From: Thioalkalivibrio sp. ALJ3
Lineage (GTDB): Bacteria; Pseudomonadota; Gammaproteobacteria; Ectothiorhodospirales; Ectothiorhodospiraceae
Reading direction: 5' to 3'
Assembly (NCBI RefSeq): GCF_000377205.1
Contig: NZ_KB897907.1
Location: 124,001-188,000 of the forward strand
Length of the DNA: 64,000 nucleotides
The translations under genes were made by a program, and so were the position numbers. The notes under the pieces are model-generated. The model had not been told where the DNA came from. It searched no databases and saw only the letters and a list, made by a program, of their open reading frames with translations. Position 1 is the first letter of the stretch. Each line of letters starts with the position of its first letter. Below, piece after piece: positions 30,393-48,789 of this stretch.

Positions 30393-30397
30393 TCGTA

Positions 30398-30682
30398 AGG
30401 GAAACACTGATGAATGTACACACTCGCATTGGTACCCCAGGTTTTCCGAGACAAGTCGCGTCGCGTAGCGGGTAGTGGTTCTACCCGCCCGTTTTTGATG
30501 AATGCGGGGCGCAACGCAGGATCGGGGAACCTGGGGTGTCAACCCCAAAGGGGCTCGGCCTCTTTGGCGTGGGAACGGCGTCGCGGTTCCCTTGTGCAGA
30601 ATGACTGCACGGCAGTCACTGCGCCTTGTTCGCACGCAAAAGCGACTCGAGCGCGAGCGTGTACATTTATCAGTGTTTCCCT
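30398..30682. repeat. Full copy (A) of a structured ~285-bp repeat element
   Basis: The element begins AGGGAAACACTGAT and ends ATCAGTGTTTCCCT. Its 30-base ends (30398-30427 and 30653-30682) are complementary at 28 positions. Inside, TTGGTACCCCAGGTT (from 30429) pairs along its full length with AACCTGGGGTGTCAA if two G-U pairs are allowed, enclosing a perfect hairpin GCGGGTAG/CTACCCGC. Near the right end TGACTGC-ACG-GCAGTCA forms another hairpin. No convincing protein is encoded. It fills the gap between the thioredoxin-like gene and the next gene and ends 14 bases before that gene's ATG. Confidence 0.85.
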
Positions 30683-30696
30683 AAGGACCGTACTGC

Positions 30697-31107
30697 ATGC
30701 ATTTCGAACGTGACTTCGTCCTGCGCAACCGCGAGGTGCTGGAGGGCATTGTGGCCCGTGCCCACCGTGTCGCGCTGGGGATCTTTGTGCTGACCTTCAG
30801 CGGCTACGGCATTGCCGTCTGGCTGTGGTTCCAGGATCAGATGTGGGCGGCGCTCATTACCGCGACCGTCAGCTATCTGGTCTTCCGCCAGTTCCGCATG
30901 CTGGCACTGGGTATCGCGCGTATGCCGCTTCGCGGTGACCCCGAAGCCCTGGAGGCGACCCGGACACTGGACAATGCGCTGGAAGAGGACCGACCGCACC
31001 CGGTGCTGGCCGAGCTTGAGGCTCACCTGCGGGCACTGGACGAGGAGGGATCTCCTGAAGCGCCGTCGGAGGAGAGTGAAGACGACCGGTCGGGTCGCCG
31101 GGACTAG
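30697..31107 (+). CDS. Two-segment membrane protein of unknown function
   Basis: The 136-residue protein has two adjacent membrane helices (residues about 25-65), a basic cytoplasmic stretch and a strongly acidic, probably disordered C terminus. It is not recognised. Its ATG lies just downstream of the right end of repeat element A, so transcription or translation may depend on sequence supplied by that repeat. The next feature is a short repeat derivative that probably terminates transcription. Confidence 0.6.
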   Translation: MHFERDFVLRNREVLEGIVARAHRVALGIFVLTFSGYGIAVWLWFQDQMWAALITATVSYLVFRQFRMLALGIARMPLRGDPEALEATRTLDNALEEDRPHPVLAELEAHLRALDEEGSPEAPSEESEDDRSGRRD

Positions 31108-31153
31108 GAAGACGCTGATTTCATCGCACGTCCGCGCTCAATCAGCGTCTCGC
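31106..31153. repeat. Internally deleted derivative of the repeat family
   Basis: About 30 bases match the left arm of copy B (GACGCTGATT, then ATCGCACGTCCGCG). They are followed directly by the terminal bases of the right arm (AATCAGCGTCT), as if the centre had been lost. An eleven-base stem remains. It lies exactly between two convergent genes and abuts the cyaY stop, so it can serve as a bidirectional terminator. Confidence 0.7.
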
Positions 31154-47730: not shown

Positions 47731-47734
47731 CTCT

Positions 47735-48018
47735 AGGGAGACGCTGATTTAATCGCACGTCCGCGTTGGTGCCCCCTGTTTTCCGAGACAAGGCGCGTCG
47801 TGCAGCGGGTAGTGGTTCTACCCGCAAGCGGCGCAACGCAGGATCGGGGAACAGGGGGCACCAACCCCACAAGCCATTGAAAGCAGGGGCTCGGCCGCTT
47901 TTGCGCGCGCACTGCGTTGCGGTTCCCTTGTGCAGAATGACTGCACGGCAGTCACCGCGCCTTGTTCGCACGCAAAAGCGACTCGAGCGCGGACGTGCGA
48001 TTAAATCAGCGTCTCCCT
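47735..48018. repeat. Full copy (B) of the structured ~285-bp repeat element
   Basis: The terminal arms (47735-47765 and 47988-48018) are a perfect 31-base inverted repeat beginning AGGGAGACGCTGAT. Inside, TTGGTGCCCCCTGTT pairs perfectly with AACAGGGGGCACCAA and encloses the same hairpin as copy A, GCGGGTAG/CTACCCGC. The right-hand hairpin TGACTGC-ACG-GCAGTCA is also shared. Arms and inner stem differ in sequence from copy A but keep complementarity. It lies between the Ala/Gln-rich gene and the leftward Crp/Fnr gene. Confidence 0.88.
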
Positions 48019-48036
48019 TGCGCCGGGCGTTTCTTG

Positions 48037-48789
48037 TTATGAGGCCTCACCCATGCAAACGGGGTCTGTCCTGCTCACCCAGTTCGCTTCGCAGTCCAGG
48101 TAGGCGCGATTGAATCCAGAGAAACGCACCAGCCCCTCCATGTCATGGATCCAGATCGCACCGCCATCGGTACGGATGAGATCCCGTTTTCGCAGCTGGC
48201 TGAACGACCGGCTCACATGTACCGCGGACATGCCCAGCGCATCCGCCAGCACGCTCTGGTTCATGGGAAGCCGCACCTCGTGCGACGGACGCTGCAGGCG
48301 GACCTTCATTTCCAGAATGAAATGCGCGAGACGCTCGGCAGCGGGGCGTCGGCCGATGTTGATAATGCGTTCCACCAGCATCGACTGTTCCCTCGCCAGA
48401 ATCAGGAAGAACAACGAGGCAAGTCGTGGTGCCTGCTCGAACACCTCGGTCAGCCTCGTTCGCGGAAAAGGACACGCCTCGATGTCCGTCAGCGCGACGA
48501 AGTCCGAACGGGCTTCGTTGAACCCCATCTCGCGCAGACCCAGGATCTGCCCCGGCAGAAAGATGTCCAGCACCTGACGTCGACCATCGGCCAGGTCGCG
48601 TACCGCACAGGCCCAGCCGGAGCTCAACGTATAGAACCTCTCTGCCTCCTCACCAGCCGCACACAGGCAGGTTTCGGCGGCATAACGCTTCGGGTCCTTC
48701 TCCAGGTCCAGCAGCAACGCCTTCTCTTCGGGTACCAGTTCGGCAAACTGGCCGATCTGCGTGAGGATGCAACCTTCCAGCATTGTCAT
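48037..48789 (-). CDS. Crp/Fnr-family transcriptional regulator
   Basis: The 250-residue protein has an N-terminal cyclic-nucleotide-binding-type beta roll (residues about 15-125), a dimerisation helix, and a C-terminal winged helix with MNQSVLADALGMSAVHVSRSFSQLR as the recognition region. Cysteines are not in the FNR [4Fe-4S] pattern, so another signal is likely. It is divergent from the acetate-module operon and its own promoter region contains a palindrome (48844). Regulation of that operon is an inference from position. Confidence 0.85.
   Translation of the reverse strand: MTMLEGCILTQIGQFAELVPEEKALLLDLEKDPKRYAAETCLCAAGEEAERFYTLSSGWACAVRDLADGRRQVLDIFLPGQILGLREMGFNEARSDFVALTDIEACPFPRTRLTEVFEQAPRLASLFFLILAREQSMLVERIINIGRRPAAERLAHFILEMKVRLQRPSHEVRLPMNQSVLADALGMSAVHVSRSFSQLRKRDLIRTDGGAIWIHDMEGLVRFSGFNRAYLDCEANWVSRTDPVCMGEAS

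Follow-up and report, generated by a model that had tools for sequence, protein, structure and literature searches.

The genome of Thioalkalivibrio sp. ALJ3 contains two similar sequences of about 280 bp, copies A and B, which fold into nested stems, and this raises the question of whether such a sequence is maintained as a folded nucleic acid, as a mobile DNA element, or as both. The two copies lie in the window, i.e. the whole analysed stretch of 64,000 nucleotides. The initial annotation of copy A had reported 28 paired positions between the 30-base ends of 30398-30682, an inner 15-base stem that is continuous only if G-U pairs are allowed, and a copy B that has changed on both sides of the stems while two loop strings are nearly unchanged. 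Recomputation gave the same result in each respect, the inner stem TTGGTACCCCAGGTT/AACCTGGGGTGTCAA consisting of 13 Watson-Crick and 2 G.U pairs. The folding z-scores of copies A and B are -12.3 and -15.7 (0 of 200 shuffles were as low); the long inverted ends alone would account for much of these values.

A mobile element with IS5-type ends

Copy A, 281 bp long, occupies 30400-30680 on the plus strand. Its terminal inverted repeats (TIRs), 30400-30428 on the left (with a start common to IS5-type ends) and 30652-30680 on the right, are the 5' and 3' halves of the outer stem P1, and they enclose the arm P2 in its long form (30429-30542, own strand plus), the short hairpin P3 (CCCCAAAGGGG, 30543-30553) and the arm P4 (30554-30651, own strand minus), the middle stem of which is decayed in Thioalkalivibrio. 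Copy B, 280 bp long, occupies 47737-48016 on the plus strand directly behind the TGA stop codon 47728-47730, with a short form of P2 (47766-47864, own strand plus), a long form of P3 (47865-47889) and P4 at 47890-47987 (own strand minus). The flanks are TAAG (30396-30399; TTAG in a sister strain) and CTAA (30681-30684; CTAG in sister strains) for copy A, and CTAG (47733-47736) and CTTG (48017-48020) for copy B, so that the outermost bases previously assigned to A (30398-30682) and B (47735-48019) are part of the 4-bp target site. Copy A follows the plus-strand stop codon 30390-30392 by 7 nt, and a plus-strand start codon lies downstream at 30697. No coding capacity was apparent in the element on inspection. 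The window also contains a remnant of two TIR pieces without any core in between (31108-31153, plus strand) and a partial copy of one TIR with most of P4 (42713-42854, minus strand). Short remnants of 71-161 bp, similar to that at 31108-31153, are found in two other genomes (G100 and G247), and beside copy B (window 47733-48060) only half is left of a terminator-like hairpin seen in relatives.

The element occurs in at least 52 places of its own 2.63-Mb genome (the union of the best 40 of 93 and the best 40 of 99 candidates), two of them cut by contig ends. BLAST identified it in 15 of 29 congeners and in none of 28 genomes outside the genus, and an exact-pattern scan for the core found Thioalkalivibrio only, among the 80 matches listed. 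Copy B had no matches in plasmid or phage collections. The set of loci comprises 193 non-identical places, 174 with both ends and 19 without; after exclusion of these 19 partial copies, 172 distinct element sequences were obtained. They are about 241-341 bp long, mostly 267-313 bp, with lengths clustering near 268, 283, 298 and 313 bp, since each of three hairpins is present with or without about 15 extra nucleotides. The Thioalkalivibrio consensus fold consists of P1 (the TIRs), the arm P2, the short hairpin P3 and the arm P4.

The ends of the element start with GGAAAC or GGAGAC and close with the reverse complement. The flanks are mostly CTAG or TTAA, often equal on both sides and often degenerate on one. 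YTAR is the usual target of IS5 elements. The features expected of a miniature inverted-repeat transposable element (MITE) are present: TIRs both in Thioalkalivibrio and in other genera, and a 4-bp target-site duplication seen in equal flanks, in YTAR sites and in an empty congener site. The insertion site of copy A was compared at the 17 of 25 loci listed: the element, or a remnant of it with an internal deletion, is present in the four nearest strains, and 12 other congeners have an empty site. Judged by these sequence features, A and B are firmly assigned to a non-autonomous DNA transposon with IS5-family ends and YTAR sites.

A candidate partner is an insertion sequence (IS) of about 1.2 kb with an open frame of 323-343 aa, found at eight loci in five sister genomes; its ends begin like those of the element, and one of its transposases scores 319 bits on NCBIfam NF033581 (transpos_IS5_4; cut-off 140). 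No PF01609 transposase was found in the own genome, and the sister IS5-family element is the presumed source of transposase in trans. The core did not arise from this IS by internal deletion, as BLAST shows only the first 14-20 bases to be shared. At one locus (L191:1002-2515) a copy of the element immediately abuts an IS5-type element with similar ends.

As the outer arms are thus TIRs like those of an IS5-family transposon, an RNA cannot be deduced from their covariation alone; matched changes are expected there from recognition by the transposase or from homogenisation. One-sided changes in Thioalkalivibrio TIRs show no preference for G.U (about 41 events leading to G.U vs 62 to A.C), and the TIRs of other genera lean to G.U (53:28 cells in 48 elements, read in the direction of the A arm). 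In the alignment of 157 Thioalkalivibrio copies, columns 13-14, which follow CTGAT, show all four pair types, yet the ends stay matched; homogenisation or selection for a perfect hairpin may be the only explanations of this.

Where copies of different strains share similar flanks, they differ in entire hairpin modules, and in four of 21 clusters of such copies both orientations are found at one site (L006/L117, L059/L111, L076/L109 and L066/L067). These differences point to frequent recombination or gene conversion, and covariation within the genus is therefore to be read cautiously. Single arms can also flip: at L155:3173-3470 an in-place inversion of the P2 arm lies between the two halves of its own stem. 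Two sister copies differ from copy A by a paired change in the lower stem of P2, CCCCAGG/CCTGGGG vs CCCCCGG/CCGGGGG.

The same core behind different ends

A covariance model of arm P2 (R1, built from 61 sequences; its E-values are rough, the calibration being short) matched 58 of 369 genomes of the class, the own genome and one congener included, and 46 of 271 genera. A broader model, R2, matched 98 of 398 genomes of the phylum and 54 of 213 genera at E 1e-5. The 152 arm matches of R1 are distributed over 91 loci. At 54 of these, two arms form a head-to-head pair, the plus-strand arm first, with a spacing of 3-8 nt in 50 cases and of 18-25 nt in four; loci with a single arm, of which there are several, arms cut by a contig end and other arrangements are not counted among the 54 pairs. 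At one locus (L282:1369-1626) two arm matches have the reverse, tail-to-tail arrangement and are 58 nt apart.

Together with 32 added elements, the 54 paired loci gave 86 elements from other genomes. The first 12 nt of their TIRs fall into 35 formal clusters; as several of the single-member ones are parsing offsets, we count some 15-20 clear TIR types. YTAR is present at both ends in 48 of the 86 elements, at one end in 18 and at neither in 20, against a chance level of 3.2% per side (104 of 3205 random places). On an Aeromonas caviae plasmid, TIRs of type GGGTCTGTTGACG lie on both sides of an IS5-family transposase gene (ends 1604 and 2459 of L357), and one end of this type abuts an IS5-family gene in Paracoccus; for type TACTCTTTCAAGG, no autonomous partner at IS spacing was found among the matches listed (five genomes). 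A first, strict TIR pattern gave one match only and was dropped as too strict.

Four elements from other genera were searched against plasmids: two matched and two did not. Named plasmid copies are those of Azotobacter chroococcum, Halomonas sp. PA16-9 and Pseudomonas aeruginosa PA83, the last with a tandem gene on either side, at distances of 6 and 30 nt. One element from another genus, searched in E. coli genomes, had no match.

At the level of sequence, the comparison shows the same core inside many unrelated TIRs across Pseudomonadota. The core is thus the part that is kept and the transposon ends are what changes, which suggests that the structured core outlives its ends and does a job of its own.

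No Rfam family matches the window (at the gathering score), copy B (to E 1) or the element in eight loci from other genera (E 0.1), in one of which a group II intron match below the gathering score lies away from the element (L223:2261-2330). Nor was such a family found in the literature, supplements lying outside this search, in agreement with the initial annotation, which knew of no described family with this structure. By its anatomy the element is a MITE with a conserved, structured core. It shares its ends and YTAR target sites with IS5-family ISs and their MITEs and is unlike them in that its core is no internal deletion of an IS and is found within many TIR types. ERIC and Correia/NEMIS are single families with one TIR type each. 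Both, in Yersinia and Neisseria respectively, are described as small mobile repeats co-transcribed with their neighbours; ERIC acts on mRNA in an orientation-dependent manner, and NEMIS via RNase III (PMC2229807). On that account ERIC is a precedent for an orientation-dependent RNA effect. The present core differs from these repeats in that Rfam indicates no homology and in that it is paired, covarying and placed behind changing ends. REP and REPIN sequences, hairpins on opposite strands in many copies, also resemble the core. REPs are given as 20-40 bp long in PMC3733652; here arms of about 100 nt lie inside DDE-type TIRs with target sites. The CIRs of Caulobacter share two long inverted arms with a linker, as described in PMC2229807; in that description they are defined by an exposed GANTC, of which the arm consensus has none, and they are set apart here by description rather than by sequence comparison.

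The core might also be a motif that is already listed, such as MRSC-65-2 or another mobile or repeat candidate of the survey in PMC11109978, but this we consider improbable. The survey covered Thioalkalivibrio, and its motifs numbered 65 are reported to be exclusive to that genus, from which we infer that the present genome is the source of MRSC-65-2. According to its main text, MRSC-65-2 is, like the core of A and B, mobile and structured, has a single long stem that covaries and reaches dozens of copies in a genome. It is distinguished by a repeated UYCCGG, and the main text describes neither paired arms nor TIRs, the supplementary alignments lying outside the comparison. UYCCGG occurs once in five of 102 arms and twice in none, and in two of 173 Thioalkalivibrio copies on either strand; the lack of an Rfam match also argues against a listed motif.

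Covariation and own-strand pairing of the arms

The interior of the element consists of two homologous hairpin arms of about 100 nt in a head-to-head arrangement, one on each strand. Each of them is built of a lower stem of about 20 bp, an internal loop, a middle stem of 7 bp and a tip hairpin. The lower stem is free in sequence with the pairing kept, and the internal loop is fixed as CAAGGC/AACGC. For the analysis of covariation, 249 arms were reduced to 102 of 95-104 nt with less than 85% identity (63 from set A3, 34 from set A4 and five Thioalkalivibrio P2 arms). When covariation was judged on this model-based collection from relatives, as the initial annotation had proposed, by our own tree-based null (cut-off E 0.05), 34 covarying column pairs were found, 31 of them among the 38 pairs of the fold; of the other three, two are displaced by one position from pairs of the tip and the third (22/78) spans the internal loop. 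The conserved bases are C24 A25 A26 G27 G28 C29 on one side and A70 A71 C72 G73 C74 G76 on the other. The commonest base has a mean frequency of 0.56 in paired columns vs 0.73 in internal-loop and apical columns, so that the observation that stems vary while loops stay extends across genera.

Within Thioalkalivibrio the signal is weak, because two subfamilies hold most of the variation. In 157 copies (15 of odd length or divergent sequence were omitted), the tree-aware null left three pairs with E less than 0.05 and a fourth with E equal to 0.05. Subfamily I (106 copies) gave two covarying pairs and subfamily II (51 copies) one, all in the structure, and the Thioalkalivibrio interior alone gave none in the open test and four when only structure pairs were tested. 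The covariation first noticed between copies A and B holds for the arms across genera; two copies were insufficient to establish it.

We counted G.U and A.C on the arm's own strand, with the register fixed by the conserved bases. The G.U:A.C ratios of the middle and lower stems were 29:2 and 59:22 in A arms, 9:1 and 65:20 in B arms, 173:5 and 287:26 in Thioalkalivibrio P2, and 61:8 and 348:270 in Thioalkalivibrio P4, the own strand of which is minus. Counted per arm over the lower stem, 70 of the 102 arms have more G.U, seven have more A.C and 25 are tied; the model search with R1 and R2 may itself lean slightly to G.U. An unanchored count, which also scores the opposed bases of the internal loop, gave G.U:A.C of 94:45 for A and 89:86 for B in 34 non-redundant elements, and 299 G.U vs 431 A.C on the plus strand of Thioalkalivibrio P4. 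The middle stem of P4 has 70% paired cells vs 93% in A, 90% in B and 91% in P2.

From these sequence patterns we conclude that selection acts on the folded single strand of each arm, and does so on the arm's own strand. The proposal of selection on folded RNA or single-stranded DNA accordingly stands for the two inner arms and is not supported for the outer ones, which are the TIRs of a DNA transposon. A single plus-strand RNA comprising the entire interior was also considered and rejected: it rested on the pairing of P4 given by RNAalifold, which favours G.U, and the plus-strand reading of P4 was withdrawn when the anchored register showed that P4 follows its own, minus strand. Pairing between the loops of P2 and P4 (ACAAGGCGCG with CGCGCCUUGU, GCAACGC with GCGUUGC) was rejected as well, its variants being nearly all one-sided; the loops are complementary because the arms are inverted homologues.

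Orientation to genes and the possible role of the core

The position of the copies was analysed relative to genes called by our own script rather than taken from annotation, copies without usable flanks being left out. Of 158 Thioalkalivibrio copies, 78 are oriented like the two co-directed genes around them and 17 opposite to such genes; convergent genes surround 31 copies and divergent genes 32. Per site the with:against ratio is 66:16, or 65:17 if the first member of each site is taken. Where the gap between the coding parts before insertion was less than 100 nt, the ratio is 43:4, and at wider gaps it is 22:13 (Fisher 0.002). At 93 sites with a plus-strand gene on the left, the reading frame enters the junction in 32, and a stop lies within 10 nt in 10 more. 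In other genera, with the better-scoring arm taken as the A arm, the ratios are 28:20 overall and 10:9 at tight sites (85 elements, minus three without called genes on both sides); tight sites differ between other genera and Thioalkalivibrio (Fisher 0.0009). Replication-strand bias was rejected as a cause of the orientation, the mean GC skew, read in the orientation of the element, being -0.000 at sites with both genes on the plus strand and within 0.016 of zero in the other gene contexts. The arms are no more broken in Thioalkalivibrio copies that oppose their genes (mean 2.7 vs 3.0 unpaired cells, p 0.42). The visible difference between Thioalkalivibrio and the other genera is in the arms, P4 having a decayed middle stem, and we tentatively link the decay to the orientation bias, a link based on one contrast, with only one genus having the decayed arm.

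The identity of the element is firm; its function has to be deduced from these patterns, as do its transcription, its action as RNA rather than as single-stranded DNA and any benefit to the host. The core's own job is probably carried out at the RNA level. The best reading, to which we give an even chance, is that the core of this mini-transposon functions as an RNA in cis and affects transcripts that come in from either side. Whichever flank transcription entered from, the first arm made would be in sense. The RNA might then let transcription pass an untranslated insert (polarity relief), or it might shield or process the end of the upstream mRNA; an element behind stop codons and within operons would thereby spare its host, and with one arm decayed, as P4 in Thioalkalivibrio, only one orientation would be tolerated inside operons. 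A cis-acting RNA would be the simplest account because it joins the folding on the own strand, the insertion at stop codons and in operons, and the freedom of orientation that is lost along with the decayed arm.

Alternatively, the arms could work as DNA, with transcripts irrelevant: hairpins extruded from each strand, or bound as single strands, would recruit a transposition or replication protein, as inverted REP pairs (REPINs) do. Arms on opposite strands, pairing on the own strand and conserved loops all suit a hairpin formed from either DNA strand, and the element is certainly mobile, but such a role does not predict the orientation bias of Thioalkalivibrio copies at operon-like sites (43:4), and we regard it as possible but rather unlikely. 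Still further down the scale, and very unlikely in our estimate, is a fold without function, in which the perfection of inverted repeats is due to template switching (quasi-palindrome correction), to gene conversion among copies and to in-place inversion, all of which alter the two sides of a stem together. Such processes would agree with the whole hairpin modules that differ at one site, the two orientations in four of 21 clusters, the inverted P2 arm of L155 and the TIR positions 13-14 that vary freely and stay matched; repair, however, gives Watson-Crick pairs without a strand preference, while the arms favour own-strand G.U (70 vs 7), and unpaired loops are kept across genera. Template switching and conversion are therefore disfavoured for the arms and may well explain much of the TIR matching.

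Returning to a core that acts on transcripts, we tentatively extend this reading, at somewhat below even chances, to a selfish RNA device distributed throughout Pseudomonadota: two inward-reading hairpins would act on transcription from either side, and the core would be the lineage, with IS5-type ends replaceable as the host offers them. Bacterial MITEs are usually viewed as decayed insertion sequences, with the ends as their defining feature. In the present element it is the interior that is conserved and under selection, and this interior recurs in many genera, combined with numerous distinct ends. Should the core act on transcripts, it would show how mobile DNA can become established within operons harmlessly, and the intact two-arm elements and the one-sided Thioalkalivibrio copies form a natural contrast that makes this question testable.
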